Assembly: GCA_012727535.1 (NCBI GenBank)
Contig: JAAYGU010000058.1
Coordinates: 1 to 35,271 of the forward strand
Source of the DNA: Bacillota bacterium
Lineage (GTDB): Bacteria > Bacillota > UBA4882 > UBA10575
Direction: 5' to 3'
Length of the DNA: 35,271 nt
Below are positions 6,246-19,070 of this stretch, in pieces (position 1 is the first letter of the stretch; each line of letters begins with the position of its first letter). A program made the position numbers and the translations under genes. The notes beneath the pieces are model-generated. The model worked only from the letters and a program-made list of their open reading frames with translations. It made no database searches and was not told the origin of the DNA.

Positions 6246-6833
6246 ATGAGTAGATGTTCCTGGTGTCTCGGTGATGAGCTGTATATGAAATATCATGATC
6301 AGGAATGGGGGGTTCCGGTTTTTGACGACCGGAAACATTTCGAGTTTTTAGTCCTCGAGGCGGCGCAGGCCGGATTAAGTTGGTTAACTATCCTTAAAAA
6401 GAGGGAAAACTACCGGGAGGCCTATGCCGACTTTGCGCCGGAGGTCGTCGCGGGCTTCTCCGAGCGAGAGATTGATGTTTTATTGAAAAATCAGGGAATC
6501 ATTAGAAACGAGCGGAAGATCCGCGCCTCTATCCATAATGCGCGGTGCTTTCTGGAAGTGCAGGCGGAGTTTGGCAGTTTCAGTGATTATCTGTGGCGGT
6601 TTGTTGATCACCGTCCGGTTGTAAATAACTGGCAAAGCGAGAAAGAGATCCCGGCCCAGACCGCATTGTCGGTTGCAATTGCTCAGGATTTAAAAAAACG
6701 CGGTTTTCAGTTTGTGGGGCCGATTATTATATACGCTCATTTACAGGCGACTGGCTTGGTGAATGACCATATCAGCGCTTGTTTTCGCCATCGACAAATC
6801 CGGGATTTAAACTTATCGCAAATACAAAGATGA
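6246..6833 (+). CDS. tag: DNA-3-methyladenine glycosylase I
   Basis: The 195-residue protein matches Tag over its full length. The zinc-clamp ligands fall at C4, H17, H175 and C179, the same numbers as in Escherichia coli Tag, and the base-pocket residues E38 (VLEAAQAG) and W46 (LSWLTIL) are also at the expected places. It removes 3-methyladenine from alkylated DNA, starting base excision repair. The ATG follows GAGGGAGAAAG. Its stop codon is 13 bases before the predicted ATC start of prs, so the two, with cinA and the next gene, look like one transcript. A -10-like TACAAT at 6192-6197 lacks a clear -35. Confidence 0.95.
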   Translation: MSRCSWCLGDELYMKYHDQEWGVPVFDDRKHFEFLVLEAAQAGLSWLTILKKRENYREAYADFAPEVVAGFSEREIDVLLKNQGIIRNERKIRASIHNARCFLEVQAEFGSFSDYLWRFVDHRPVVNNWQSEKEIPAQTALSVAIAQDLKKRGFQFVGPIIIYAHLQATGLVNDHISACFRHRQIRDLNLSQIQR

Positions 6834-6846
6834 GGGGGAGAAGGAG

Positions 6847-7833
6847 ATCGATACCGGGGAGATAAAAATTTTTGCCGGCAGTTCGGGACGGGCGTTTGCT
6901 GAAGAAATGAGTAATTACTTGGGCATTAAACTGGGGGAGGCTGACACGATTGTTTTCACTGAGGGCAACATTTTTGTCCGGGTTGGTGAGACGGTCCGGG
7001 ACAAAGATGTCTATCTCGTGCAGCCGATTGGCCTCTACCCCAACAAGGAGTTTGTCGAAATCCTCTTTTGGATGGATGCTTTCAAACGGGCGAGTGCTAA
7101 CTCGGTGACGGCGATTATTCCTTATTTTGGCTATGCCAAAGGGGATAAGAAGGATGAACCCCGGGTTTCCATCCGGGCTCGGGTCTGTGCGGAATGTATT
7201 GAGCTGGCGGGCGCTGACCGGATCGTAACGATGGACTTGCATAGTCCGCAGATCCAAGGTTTTTTCAAAAAACCGGTCGATCATCTTTATGCCCTACCAG
7301 TGTTGTGTGAATACATTAAGAGTTTAGGGCTTGAAAATTTGATTGTGGTATCTCCGGATGCCGGTTTTACTAAGCAAGCCCGGAAATTTGCCTCTTATCT
7401 TGGCGTACCGGTGGCGATTGGGGATAAAACCAGAACAGGCCATGACGAACAGGCAGAGGTTCTGGAGATTTTGGGGGATGTGAACGGCCGGAACGTCCTG
7501 GTTGTCGATGATTTTAGCATTACTGGGGGAACCTTGACTACACTGGCCGAGGAGCTGAAAAGGCGCGGTGCGGGCCGGATCTTGGTCACTTTATCCCATA
7601 TTTTATTAAACGAGCAAGCCTTGGCCAAAATTGCAGAGAGCCCGATTGAAATGGTGATCGGCACGGACACGGTTTATAACCCTTACATCAAGGGGGCAAA
7701 TAAGATCAAGATTGTTTCGGTTGCTCCATTGTTTGCCGAGGCGATTGACCGTATTCATAAACGGGAATCGGTCAGCCCGTTGTTCTCTGCGGTGCCCAAG
7801 AAAGTAGTGGACTATAACGGAGTATTAAAATAA
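6847..7833 (+). CDS. prs: Ribose-phosphate pyrophosphokinase, probable ATC start
   Basis: PRPP synthetase makes 5-phosphoribosyl diphosphate from ribose 5-phosphate and ATP for nucleotide, His and Trp synthesis. The 328-residue reading has both phosphoribosyltransferase-like halves: YFGYAKGDKKDEPR and MDLHSPQIQGFF in the first, DKTRTG (flexible-loop area) and the PRPP loop VVDDFSITGGTL in the second. The usual loop is DDxIDTAGT; here the second half reads SITGGT, closer to archaeal versions. The only ATG (6907) would cut off the first strand, GEIKIFAGSS, which the family needs. The frame is open from 6811 and contains no ATG, GTG or TTG before 6907; GGGGGAG (6834-6840) sits six bases before ATC 6847. 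I therefore place the start there. An indel in the G-run is the alternative. Confidence 0.85.
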   Translation: MDTGEIKIFAGSSGRAFAEEMSNYLGIKLGEADTIVFTEGNIFVRVGETVRDKDVYLVQPIGLYPNKEFVEILFWMDAFKRASANSVTAIIPYFGYAKGDKKDEPRVSIRARVCAECIELAGADRIVTMDLHSPQIQGFFKKPVDHLYALPVLCEYIKSLGLENLIVVSPDAGFTKQARKFASYLGVPVAIGDKTRTGHDEQAEVLEILGDVNGRNVLVVDDFSITGGTLTTLAEELKRRGAGRILVTLSHILLNEQALAKIAESPIEMVIGTDTVYNPYIKGANKIKIVSVAPLFAEAIDRIHKRESVSPLFSAVPKKVVDYNGVLK

Positions 7834-13821: not shown

Positions 13822-14108
13822 TAATTTACCAAGTGGCCGGAGACAGAAAGCAAGTTTCTGTTCCGGGGAGTAGAAGAGAATGAAAGTGGCGATGAAGAGT
13901 GAGTAACCGGTAGAAGTTAGTCGCAGAGAGAAAGGCCGTTGGCTGGAAGCCTTTCCTAAGTTTGCCGGTGAAGACCGACTCGGAGCAGATGGTGAATTCA
14001 AGCCAAACGGTTGACACCGTTATCTGTCATGAAGCCGGGTCCTAGACCAACAAGGGTGGAACCGCGGGCCAATTTACCCGTCCCTTACCAGGGACGGGTT
14101 TGTTTTTT
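13822..14108 (+). promoter_or_regulatory. T-box leader controlling the Nudix gene and thrS
   Basis: The roughly 285-base leader has the T-box layout: GATGAAGAGTGAGTA and CGCAGAGAG in stem I, the distal-loop hairpin GGCTGGAAGCC, the specifier region GGTGAAGACCGACTCGGAGC, the T-box core AGGGTGGAACCGCGGG (14053-14068) and a terminator. In the family, uncharged tRNA pairs with the specifier codon and with the T-box bulge, favours the antiterminator and lets transcription pass. ACC (14974 is not in this leader; the codon is at 13974-13976) would read threonine, fitting thrS downstream; GAC (13973-13975) would read aspartate if the register were shifted by one. I favour ACC. Confidence 0.93.
14076..14108 (+). 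terminator. Regulated terminator of the T-box
   Basis: ACCCGTCCC (14076-14084) pairs with GGGACGGGT (14091-14099) around TTACCA and is followed by TTGTTTTTT. The left arm lies eight bases after the T-box core, as expected for mutually exclusive antiterminator and terminator folds. Confidence 0.93.
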
Positions 14109-14136
14109 GAGAGTAGGGGACAGGAGGTGAGCAAAG

Positions 14137-14565
14137 ATCGGGCCAGAAGTTGAAGTATGTGCTGGAGGAGTCGTCTTTGTTGACGGTAAGATAGTGGTGC
14201 TCCGGAGGAAAAATGGGGTTTGGTTAATGCCGAAAGGCCATGTCGATCCGGGTGAAACCCTGGAAGAGGCGGCCTGCCGCGAGGTTTGGGAGGAAACTGG
14301 TCTGCGGGCGGAAATCGGGGCGCCTTTGGGGGAAACCAGGTATTCTTTCACTGAAAATGATACTGTTCACCGGAAGAGGGTGCACTGGTTTTATATGAAG
14401 GCGATCGGCGGGAAGCTGCAGCCGGAGGAGGAGATGTTTACGGAGATCAAACTCCTGACCGAAGAGGAATTAACCACTTTAACTTTTGAGAAAGACCGGA
14501 AACTGGCTAAAGCAGCCTTTGCTCTGTACCGAGAGGAGCGGGGCCGGGGTCCGGTGCCCGGTTGA
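14137..14565 (+). CDS. Nudix hydrolase, probable ATC start
   Basis: The Nudix box is complete: GHVDPGETLEEAACREVWEE followed by TG fits G-x5-E-x7-REUXEEXGU. Such enzymes cut nucleoside diphosphates linked to another group (ADP-ribose, oxidised nucleotides, dinucleoside polyphosphates); the exact substrate is not visible. With the ATC at 14137 the product is 142 residues and begins IGPEVEVCAGGVVFVDGKIVVLRR, which supplies the first strands of the Nudix fold. The frame has a TGA at 14128-14130 and no ATG, GTG or TTG until GTG 14194, which would remove those strands. AGGAGGTGA (14122-14130) lies exactly six bases before the ATC. It is the first gene after the T-box and shares control with thrS 83 bases downstream. 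Confidence 0.85.
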   Translation: MGPEVEVCAGGVVFVDGKIVVLRRKNGVWLMPKGHVDPGETLEEAACREVWEETGLRAEIGAPLGETRYSFTENDTVHRKRVHWFYMKAIGGKLQPEEEMFTEIKLLTEEELTTLTFEKDRKLAKAAFALYREERGRGPVPG

Positions 14566-14578
14566 GTCTTTCAGCGTA

Positions 14579-14601
14579 CCAAGGTTAAGAATCTACCTTG
14601 G
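14579..14601 (+). other. Small intercistronic hairpin between the Nudix gene and thrS
   Basis: CCAAGGT (14579-14585) can pair with ACCTTGG (14595-14601) around a 9-base loop. The following AATCATCTTT is a poor T-run. It may partly reduce read-through or protect mRNA; it is not a convincing terminator. Confidence 0.35.
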
Positions 14602-14648: not shown

Positions 14649-16559
14649 ATGATCAGGCTTAAGCTGCCGAATGGGGTAGAAGAACAAGCCGCTGGAGGCA
14701 TCTCTGGCAAAGAGCTGGTGGCCGGATTAGAGCCGGCTTTAAAAAAGGAGGTAATCTGCCTAAAGGTCGATGGTAACCTAACGGATCTGTCAGCGACACT
14801 GCCCGCCAGGTCCGAAGTGGAGTTGGTCTTACGGTCCGCGCCGGAGGCCTTAGAAGTTTTACGGCATTCGGCCGCGCATATTATGGCGCAGGCGGTAAAG
14901 AGGATCTTTAAAGATGTTAAGCTGGCGATTGGGCCGGCGATTGAGCACGGTTTTTATTACGATTTCGAACTGCCCCGACCGCTGACGCCGGAGGATTTGG
15001 CTGCGATTGAAGCCGAGATGAAGAAGATCGTGAAGGAAGATCTGCCGTTTCAGCGTCGGGTACTCTCGCAGGAGGAGGCCTTAGCCCTCTTGGAGGAGCA
15101 GGGGGAAAAGTTTAAAGTTGAGTTAGTGTCGGAGCTGGACGACCAGGAGATCAGTTTTTATCAGCAGGGAGAGTTCATTGACCTCTGCCGGGGACCGCAT
15201 CTTCCTTCGACCAGATATCTAAAGGTCTTTAAGTTGACCAGTATCGCCGGGGCTTACTGGCGCGGCGATTCCTCGCGCGAGATGTTGCAGCGGATTTACG
15301 GAACGGCGTTTTTCCAGAAGGAGGAGCTAGAAAATTACTTTAAGTTCTTGGAAGAGGCCGCCAAGCGGGACCATCGTAAGCTGGGACGGGAATTGGATTT
15401 ATTCTCAACCAGTGAACAGATTGGCGCTGGGTTGATCCTTTGGCACCCCAAAGGGGGGCGGATCCGCCAGGTGATCGAGGACTTCTGGCGTGAAGAGCAC
15501 CGGAAGAATGGTTACGATCTCGTCTATACGCCTCATCTGGGACGGGGATTGCTCTGGGAGACCAGCGGCCATTTAGACTTTTATCGCGAAAACATGTATT
15601 CCGGGATGGAGATTGATCAGCAGGAATACCTCATTAAACCGATGAACTGCCCCTTCCATATTGAAATTTATAAGAGCCGGAGCCGTTCATACCGGGAGTT
15701 GCCGTTCCGCTGGGCTGAGTTGGGTACGGTCTATCGCTACGAACGCAGTGGTGTCCTGCACGGGCTTTTACGGGTCCGAGGCTTTACGCAGGATGATGCC
15801 CATATTTTTTGCCGCCCCGATCAGATGCCGGCGGAGATCGACCGGGTACTCGAGTTTTGCCTAAAGATTTTGAGAGCGTTCGGATTTACCGATTTTAAAC
15901 TATATTTGGCCACCCGGCCGGAGAAATCGGTCGGTTCGGAAGAAAGATGGGAAGCAGCTACCGCTGCTCTAAGGGCGGCGATCGAAAAGGCCGGCTTGCC
16001 TTTTGCCGTGGATGAAGGGGGCGGCGCTTTTTACGGACCAAAGATCGACTTGAAGATTAAAGATGCTTTGGGGCGGGAATGGCAGTGTTCAACCATCCAG
16101 TTTGATTTTAATGAGCCGGAGCGCTTCGGCCTGACCTACAAAGGAGCAGACAGCCAGGACCATCAGCCTTATATGATCCACCGGGCTCTTCTGGGTTCAC
16201 TAGAGCGTTTCTTTGGTATCCTGGTGGAACACTATGAAGGTGCTTTTCCCTTATGGCTTGCTCCGGTGCAAGCGCTGGTCATTCCAGTCTTGCCAGCGAA
16301 TTTGGAGTATGCCGAGGCGGTCTGTCACTGGTTACAAGCCAACGGCATCCGGGCAGAAGTCGACGGCCGGAACGAAAAGATCGGCTACCGGATCCGCGAA
16401 GCACAGTTGCAGAAGGTCCCCTATATGTTGGTGGTTGGGGAACAAGAAGCCAGCGAGGGTAAGGTTGCGGTACGGACCAGAAAAGAAGGAGATCTGGGCG
16501 TTTGGGAGCGGGAGGCTTTGCTCCAGCGGATGCAGGAAGAGATTGCCCAGAAAAGTTAA
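14649..16559 (+). CDS. thrS: Threonyl-tRNA synthetase
   Basis: The 636-residue protein has the TGS domain (about 1-62), the editing domain with H73 and H77 (RHSAAHIMA) and C180 and H184 (DLCRGPH), the class II catalytic core and the anticodon-binding domain (about 540-636). The catalytic zinc ligands are C334 (PMNCPFH), H385 (DDAHIF) and H511 (MIHRALLGS), and R363 lies in motif 2 (VYRYERSG); these numbers equal those of the Escherichia coli enzyme. It charges tRNA-Thr and clears mischarged serine. ATG 14649 follows AGAAGGAGGAAGAAG. It is the main target of the T-box upstream, with the Nudix gene cotranscribed. Confidence 0.98.
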   Translation: MIRLKLPNGVEEQAAGGISGKELVAGLEPALKKEVICLKVDGNLTDLSATLPARSEVELVLRSAPEALEVLRHSAAHIMAQAVKRIFKDVKLAIGPAIEHGFYYDFELPRPLTPEDLAAIEAEMKKIVKEDLPFQRRVLSQEEALALLEEQGEKFKVELVSELDDQEISFYQQGEFIDLCRGPHLPSTRYLKVFKLTSIAGAYWRGDSSREMLQRIYGTAFFQKEELENYFKFLEEAAKRDHRKLGRELDLFSTSEQIGAGLILWHPKGGRIRQVIEDFWREEHRKNGYDLVYTPHLGRGLLWETSGHLDFYRENMYSGMEIDQQEYLIKPMNCPFHIEIYKSRSRSYRELPFRWAELGTVYRYERSGVLHGLLRVRGFTQDDAHIFCRPDQMPAEIDRVLEFCLKILRAFGFTDFKLYLATRPEKSVGSEERWEAATAALRAAIEKAGLPFAVDEGGGAFYGPKIDLKIKDALGREWQCSTIQFDFNEPERFGLTYKGADSQDHQPYMIHRALLGSLERFFGILVEHYEGAFPLWLAPVQALVIPVLPANLEYAEAVCHWLQANGIRAEVDGRNEKIGYRIREAQLQKVPYMLVVGEQEASEGKVAVRTRKEGDLGVWEREALLQRMQEEIAQKS

Positions 16560-17420: not shown

Positions 17421-19070
17421 ATGAAACTTGACGAGCGGCGGCGTGATGAGGAACGGCTGCGGGCCGTAGTGGAGTTTGCCCATAATGTGCTCACCCAGGG
17501 GCGGGATCGTTACCGAGCGAAACCGACTCCCCTGCTGGCCGATGGGCTAAAGGTTGATACTGGAGAGCATATCACCTGGAGAGTAGCGGGAGGCAGGGAG
17601 ATTATCCTCTCCAATCTGGCCAGTCAACAAGTTTTGTTACGGGTGCTGACCGGATTGAGCAACCTCACGGGGGAGATCGGGTTTAAAGCGGCGGGGGAAG
17701 CGGTTCTACGTTATCATTTTGCTCATCTAACGGACAGTAGTGGTTTGTTGCAATGGGGCGGTCACCGGGTAATTGACCTGAAAACCTTGAGGGTCGACGG
17801 GCCGGAGAATAAGGGGTTGGTGCATGAGTTAAAAAACCATTTTCCCTTTTATGATCTGATGTTTGCGGTCAACCCGGCAGCTACGCGTAGGTTAATTGGT
17901 GCGATCTGGAATGCCCACCTCCATGACTGGGCGAATCTGGAGCTCAGCCGGCACGGCCGGTATGGGTTGTCGCCTGGCCTACTCTGGGAGCATCCTTTTC
18001 ATGATCCGCCGCCGTTTAGGGAGACCCGCGGTCTTTCTTTTCTCCCGACCGGTAATGATCTGATCTATGCGGCTGGTCGCCTTTATAAGCATACGGGCTA
18101 TCTCCCTGCCCTGGTCTGGGCCAAGAGGCTGGCCTGGATGTTTGTTAAAGCACGACACCCTCAAACCCGGCTTGGGGTCTATCAATACACGCAGGCTCTA
18201 AAGCAGGAAGAGGCGGAGATCGCCCCGGAGGATCCGCGTTTTAGCCTCTCCTGTTATGGGGACCGGGCAAAACGCCAGTTGGGTCCAGAATTGGGCCCCG
18301 ACGCGCTGGAAGGAAATATGCTGCTGCCCAGGAAAGCCCGGTCGATTTATGTGATTAATACCCTGATGGAGCTGGAACTGGCTGAAGAGCTGGGGGCAGA
18401 AGCCAGGGAGTTCGTGGCGTGGGTGCATGAAGGAATGTTAGCTTATGCCAAGTATGCCTACCTTCCGGAGACCAATCAGTTGAAACCAATGTTGGCGAAT
18501 GGTACGGATCTATCCGGTTATAAGTTACCGCGCAGCGGGTACTACGGCCGCGCGGGAACGGTCCTGCAGCGTTCTCCGGCCGGGGGGGATTTTTTACATG
18601 CTTACGCGCGTACTTATCGTTTGACCGGCGATCCCGATCTCTGGACGGTCGTACGCCAGATCGGGCAGGGGCTTGGCCTAGGCGACTTGGGTTTTCGTCC
18701 CGGCGATAAGGTACAGCTTGCTCTGGAAACCAGAGAGGCGGATTATCGGATCCTCTTTGCTTTGTTGGAGATTTACCGGACAATACCCCACCGGGCTTAC
18801 CTGGCTTTAGCCCGGAGAGTGGGGGATAATATCCTGCGGAGTAAATTCCGCCACGGCTACTTTTTGCGGCAGCCTGATTGTCTTTATGCCGAGTTTAACG
18901 CCGTCGAACCGTTGGCCTTGTTAGCCCTGGAAGCAACGATCCGGGGAACCCCTGAACTGGTACCCGGGTATTTGGCGGCTGGTTATCTCACCGGTGATTA
19001 CGAAGAGCTGGACGGGACCGTCCATGGCCTCTATGGGGGAGAATTATACGAGCGCAGCCGGATGTCATAG
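17421..19070 (+). CDS. Cytoplasmic family-2 (PL2) pectate lyase
   Basis: The 549-residue protein has no signal peptide and looks like an alpha/alpha toroid. In the PL2 structure I recall (Yersinia YePL2A) metal ligands are H109, E130 and H172 and the base is R171. Here H115 (WGGHRVI), E136 (VHELKNH), R177 and H178 (LSRHGRY) have the same spacing, 21, 41 and 1 residues. PL2 enzymes are intracellular, transition-metal-dependent exolyases that split oligogalacturonates by beta-elimination after import (PelW type). ATG 17421 follows GGGAGGAG (17408-17415); an earlier start at 17334 would overlap the promoter. The gene has its own promoter and no pectin transporter beside it. Family identity is inferred from this spacing plus general resemblance, not from a database search. 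Confidence 0.75.
   Translation: MKLDERRRDEERLRAVVEFAHNVLTQGRDRYRAKPTPLLADGLKVDTGEHITWRVAGGREIILSNLASQQVLLRVLTGLSNLTGEIGFKAAGEAVLRYHFAHLTDSSGLLQWGGHRVIDLKTLRVDGPENKGLVHELKNHFPFYDLMFAVNPAATRRLIGAIWNAHLHDWANLELSRHGRYGLSPGLLWEHPFHDPPPFRETRGLSFLPTGNDLIYAAGRLYKHTGYLPALVWAKRLAWMFVKARHPQTRLGVYQYTQALKQEEAEIAPEDPRFSLSCYGDRAKRQLGPELGPDALEGNMLLPRKARSIYVINTLMELELAEELGAEAREFVAWVHEGMLAYAKYAYLPETNQLKPMLANGTDLSGYKLPRSGYYGRAGTVLQRSPAGGDFLHAYARTYRLTGDPDLWTVVRQIGQGLGLGDLGFRPGDKVQLALETREADYRILFALLEIYRTIPHRAYLALARRVGDNILRSKFRHGYFLRQPDCLYAEFNAVEPLALLALEATIRGTPELVPGYLAAGYLTGDYEELDGTVHGLYGGELYERSRMS

Follow-up and report, generated by a model that had tools for sequence, protein, structure and literature searches.

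A Nudix hydrolase gene that very probably starts at AUC, ahead of thrS in a T-box operon of a Bacillota bacterium

The Nudix gene ahead of thrS in the window analysed here (the whole stretch of 35,271 nucleotides, contig C17 of a 2.23 Mb draft genome (MAG), coded G000) raises the question of where its translation begins. From the upstream stop to the start of the conserved protein, its frame contains no ATG, GTG or TTG, and the same holds in G001, a second, separately assembled species of the same genus whose Nudix protein is 88% identical.

Start site of the Nudix gene

The features at the start site are the following.
14122-14130, plus strand: extended Shine-Dalgarno (SD) sequence AGGAGGTGA, duplex of -17.3 kcal/mol, kept in G001
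14128-14130, plus strand: TGA in frame with nudix, ending the open frame ahead of its start, inside AGGAGGTGA, also in G001
14137-14139, plus strand: ATC, very probably the nudix start codon; other genera of the family have ATG (G002, G012, G004) or GTG (G007, G014) in this column

At this site AGGAGG (14122-14127) is followed by the in-frame TGA, the six bases GCAAAG and ATC, after which the codons read GGG CCA GAA GTT GAA GTA TGT GCT GGA GGA GTC GTC TTT, and the first in-frame ATG, GTG or TTG is GTG 14194, within the conserved Nudix fold. The earlier note had described a stop within the ribosome site, ATC 14137 six bases on and GTG 14194 as the next start, and the sequence confirms this description. 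NCBI table 11 itself permits an ATC start, and its full list of start codons yields an ORF of 142 aa that begins at ATC (14137-14565). The SD duplex is the fifth strongest among 664 sampled genes, and the genome holds a single exact match to the pattern AGGAGGTGA-N6-ATC. Unusual structure around the nudix start was looked for by folding the leader, and none was found (z near 0).

A gene caller would choose GTG 14194, the first canonical start, and G001 carries a GTG at nearly the same place; if translation began at GTG 14194, the conserved upstream stretch would have to be untranslated or a decayed remnant. However, conservation of the peptide encoded upstream extends to relatives with as little as 57% identity, and this peptide forms the first strand in the structures of Ndx1, its closest solved relative, with which the residues lost under a start at GTG 14194 align. 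The alignment with Ndx1 and Ap4A hydrolase thus upholds the claim of the earlier note that this start would delete the conserved first Nudix strands. The SD at GTG 14194 is weak as well (-3.2 kcal/mol), and we regard it as very unlikely that the gene starts there.

A sequencing or assembly error could in principle have converted an ATG or GTG into ATC, or an indel could hide an upstream start, and G000 is a draft genome with probable base errors in rpsD and dpaB. In rpsD (L131, minus strand near 18515) the reading is ATG GCT AGA TAA; the sister species G001 has TAT in place of this fourth-codon stop, which is probably a base error. When dpaB (dipicolinate synthase B-like, L167:1974, plus strand) is compared with its orthologue, an in-frame TAG interrupts it, and this probably reflects an error or marks a pseudogene. 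At the nudix start, in contrast, G001 has an identical AGGAGGTGA, TGA and ATC with a spacer of equal length, and since the same stop, ribosome site and ATC recur in a second species, the ATC does not stem from a read error. G000 and G001 thus share a near-cognate codon at SD spacing, and the first six codons are unchanged between two genes that otherwise show 34 synonymous and 16 nonsynonymous codon differences. The ATC of prs, described below, is likewise shared with G001, and the ATT of lysC and the CTG of xerC recur in at least six genomes. The error explanation is therefore largely refuted by G001, and we give it hardly any credence.

The codon that precedes the ATC is AAG in G000 and AGG in G001, a difference that argues both against that codon as the start and against frameshifting on AAA-G. 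Such frameshifting would begin at a GTG at 14127, within the SD, from which the reading GTG AGC AAA G ATC would let the lysine tRNA slip from AAA to AAG, and this GTG is in frame in seven family members. However, the slip would in G001 have to proceed from AAG to AGG, which the lysine tRNA cannot read; the GTG overlaps the SD core; and the GTG is also present, out of frame, in G007 and G014, both of which have a normal GTG start downstream. A start at GTG 14127 with +1 frameshifting into the Nudix frame is hence extremely improbable. Readthrough of the TGA at 14128-14130 was also considered and rejected, as the frame upstream of it is T-box RNA.

In four more genomes the SD is followed by ACG ATC (G015, G009), ATC ATC (G011) or ATA ATA (G006), and the starts of these homologs are ambiguous because an in-frame GTG lies three codons upstream, inside the SD. 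Comparison of the aligned sequences nevertheless makes ATC 14137 very probably the start of the Nudix gene.

The nudix-thrS operon and its hydrolase

The gene belongs to a transcription unit with the following features.
13883-14088, plus strand: T-box leader RNA, probably threonine-specific (Rfam RF00230, 96.8 bits against a gathering score of 93)
14137-14565, plus strand: Nudix hydrolase CDS, 142 aa, Ndx1/Ap4A-hydrolase-like (Pfam NUDIX, 1.6e-22; solved relatives)
14649-16559, plus strand: thrS, for threonyl-tRNA synthetase, beginning at ATG, the second gene behind the T-box (TIGR00418, 742.6 bits)

The RF00230 match, with its T-box bulge, lies ahead of the operon, and T-boxes are above threshold also in 7 of 20 relatives; an ACC at the expected specifier place suggests that the T-box is probably threonine-specific. 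The order nudix-thrS is retained in all 20 class-level loci checked, and a gap of 83 nt separates the two genes in the window. Between them lies a perfect 7-bp inverted repeat (CCAAGGT/ACCTTGG, window 14577-14601), the sequence of which is not kept in G001.

The best solved relatives of the Nudix protein are Thermus Ndx1 (1vc8, 3.9e-24) and Aquifex Ap4A hydrolase (3i7u, 1.5e-20), and the Nudix box GX5EX7REUXEEXGU is present as GHVDPGETLEEAACREVWEETGL, as in proteins of the Ndx1/Ap4A hydrolase type. Both the Nudix box and the first strand align with these two enzymes; the present putative hydrolase gene differs from theirs in being coupled to thrS and a T-box. Aminoacyl-tRNA synthetases make Ap4A, and a hydrolase adjoining thrS therefore makes sense. 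The Nudix product is likely a diadenosine-polyphosphate hydrolase, judged by its resemblance to these enzymes.

Other non-canonical starts in the genome

The earlier note had mentioned another ATC gene within 8 kb, which is most likely prs.
6847-7833, plus strand: prs, ribose-phosphate pyrophosphokinase, with ATC at 6847-6849, also ATC in G001

The first canonical start of prs, ATG 6907, lies inside the domain, so that standard starts would truncate prs as well as nudix, just as the earlier note had maintained. The prs column contains ATC in G000 and G001 and TTG in G021, G008, G010 and G003, and prs very probably starts at ATC 6847 on the strength of this alignment. The two genes had been said to share one pattern, and they do share an ATC without a usable canonical start; the strong SD and six-base spacer, on the other hand, do not extend to prs, in which AAGGAG directly abuts the ATC and the usable SD, GAGGGGGAG, is only average (rank 307 of 664). 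The genome has two prs genes (window 6811-7833 and G000:C67:1046-1978) that are 41% identical; the type with the ATC start is less widespread and is found in only some relatives. A short out-of-frame ATG...TAA frame overlaps the prs start (window 6830-6865), with an ATG at the same place in G001.

From these two genes the earlier note had proposed that AUC may be a regular start codon of the organism, a proposal that a lack of ATC excess at SD-spaced positions genome-wide would speak against. We sampled about 0.97 Mb of the genome, obtained 664 coding frames closed at the 5' end, and counted in-frame codons at spacings of 6-9 from SD matches of at least 7 bases. Among the 253 SD-spaced codons were 81 ATG, 25 GTG, 21 TTG and 7 ATC, and in this 0.97 Mb no clear excess of ATC over codon usage was seen (7 of 126 non-canonical positions, p = 0.09); shorter SD matches of 6 bases gave 21 of 450 non-canonical positions (p = 0.04). 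Only three of the 664 sampled genes were found to need ATC. Regular use of AUC is thus unsupported, the scan having largely given the result that speaks against it, and a tendency specific to AUC is not borne out either, since lysC uses ATT, xerC CTG and infC ATT or ATA.

The SD-spaced codon count alone could not separate rare starts from background, and a comparison of orthologs was added; conserved SD codons overwhelmed its first filter, and another took its place. When sequence ahead of the first canonical start was scanned for coding score, mostly split or frameshifted genes came up; in a 202-codon frame at L186:15988 (plus strand), coding character extends over 37 codons ahead of the first canonical start. 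A search for SD-supported frames without a canonical start, followed by homology, gave three further genes.
L167:2417, plus strand: lysC, aspartate kinase, ATT start, with ATT found in six or more of the family's genomes
L154:10759, plus strand: xerC, tyrosine recombinase, CTG start, with CTG in six genomes
L173:9349, plus strand: ABC-transporter ATPase, ATC start, two codons after an in-frame TGA

The lysC ATT is found in G000, G001, G006, G005, G009 and G007, in a column that is occupied precisely by ATG, GTG or TTG in more distant relatives. A TTG without SD spacing follows three codons downstream in most family members, but G007 lacks any canonical start for 38 codons. The xerC CTG is present in G000, G006, G007, G009, G002 and G004, with canonical starts absent for 23-37 codons; in G000, G009 and G002 a TGA lies in frame immediately ahead of it. 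The ABC ATPase has ATC in G000 and ATG in the same column of G007, G009 and G002, and its first canonical start comes 64 codons later. In infC, as known in other bacteria, ATT or ATA is used throughout the family, here as AGGAGGTGG, six bases and ATT. Since SD strength is only average in prs, lysC and the ABC gene, a strong SD is no rule for the set.

Among G000-G002 ortholog pairs with closed ends, 4 of 183 G000 genes need a non-canonical start, about 2% (95% interval 0.6-5.5%); the four are nudix, xerC, the ABC gene and lysC, and nudix itself had prompted the search. If ordinary codons occupied these columns, the chance that five of five would be ATC, ATT, ATA or CTG is about 6e-6 by codon usage, a rough figure as the genes were found by scanning. 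Judged by these alignments, conserved non-canonical starts seem unusually numerous in the lineage, the rate being drawn from this lineage only. That CTG and ATT persist in xerC and lysC despite the wide divergence of both genes between genera suggests that the start codon is under selection.

An alternative that accepts the ATC start and disputes only its regulation is a lineage-wide relaxation of start selection through an altered IF3 or initiator tRNA, in which ATC would be tolerated drift rather than a regulatory device. The rate in the ortholog pairs and the mixture of codons (ATC, ATT, CTG) would fit such a relaxation, as would the ACG, ATA and ATC beside the SD in nudix homologs, although these have the alternative in-frame GTG. 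Against it, inspection of infC and the initiator tRNA gave no evidence of altered machinery, the initiator tRNA being standard and IF3 appearing intact and conserved along its length; ATG, GTG and TTG dominate the SD-spaced codons; and the retention of lysC-ATT and xerC-CTG across deep divergence resembles selection more than drift. We consider relaxed start selection unlikely, though still to be taken seriously.

Gene callers ignore AUC, AUU and CUG starts, and such starts have thus hardly been counted; the N-termini of these proteins in databases are probably wrong, as standard annotation would clip them. Comparison of the SD-spaced column between relatives detects non-canonical starts, and one lineage with several of them, two conserved across genera, offers a natural set for probing their purpose.

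Proposed function of the AUC start and known systems

Taking the evidence as a whole, we think it highly likely that nudix (14137-14565) is translated from AUC 14137 by means of its strong SD, as the first gene of a T-box-controlled nudix-thrS operon in which the weak start would hold the hydrolase below ThrRS and expose it to IF3. The unusually strong AGGAGGTGA would position the initiator tRNA at AUC 14137, where a mismatch at the third codon base would be tolerated. By analogy with known weak starts, the AUC would probably keep the hydrolase well below the ThrRS made from the same mRNA, and it may expose the Nudix gene to IF3, as is the case for infC. A low-efficiency or regulated nudix start, which the earlier note had raised, is hence plausible. 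Considerably more speculative, and in our opinion doubtful, is the idea that nudix-thrS, prs, lysC, xerC, the ABC transporter and infC, perhaps 1-3% of the genome, make up in this uncultured Bacillota family an IF3-responsive translational regulon on AUC, AUU and CUG starts that would tie nucleotide, aspartate-family and tRNA-charging metabolism to initiation capacity.

To our knowledge, starts at AUC, AUU or CUG have been recognised in no more than a handful of bacterial genes. The infC gene starts at ATT in E. coli and at ATC in Streptomyces (PMC5472188), and the IF3-autoregulated infC genes (AUU, AUC or AUA) resemble nudix in having an extended SD, a short spacer and an AUH codon, as does the infC of this lineage. 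In contrast to infC, which controls its own product, the gene described here encodes a Nudix hydrolase in a T-box operon, with a possible link to IF3. In Streptomyces sigR, a GTC start repressed by IF3 sets the ratio to the antisigma factor (PMC5472188); there too a non-canonical start lies on the upstream gene of a pair, in which a yield below that of the downstream gene matters, but the codon is GUC rather than AUC, and sigR was proved by mutagenesis whereas the nudix case is comparative.

In S. aureus, AUU and AUA starts with an extended SD yield about 10% as much as AUG in poor medium, rising for ccpN to as much as 30% in rich medium (PMC13009471), while published measurements put CUG below 1% of AUG (PMC11497404). 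The S. aureus genes ccpN (AUA) and cvfC1 (AUU) share with nudix a conserved non-canonical start and an extended SD in a Gram-positive bacterium (PMC13009471), but they were shown by Ribo-Ret and reporters, while the nudix start is supported by sequence comparison. Such genes seem to be more numerous in the present lineage than in S. aureus, and they extend to metabolic genes (lysC, prs) and to a CTG start. In conclusion, the ATC start of nudix is, by this comparison, very probably real and joins the known kind represented by infC, sigR and ccpN.
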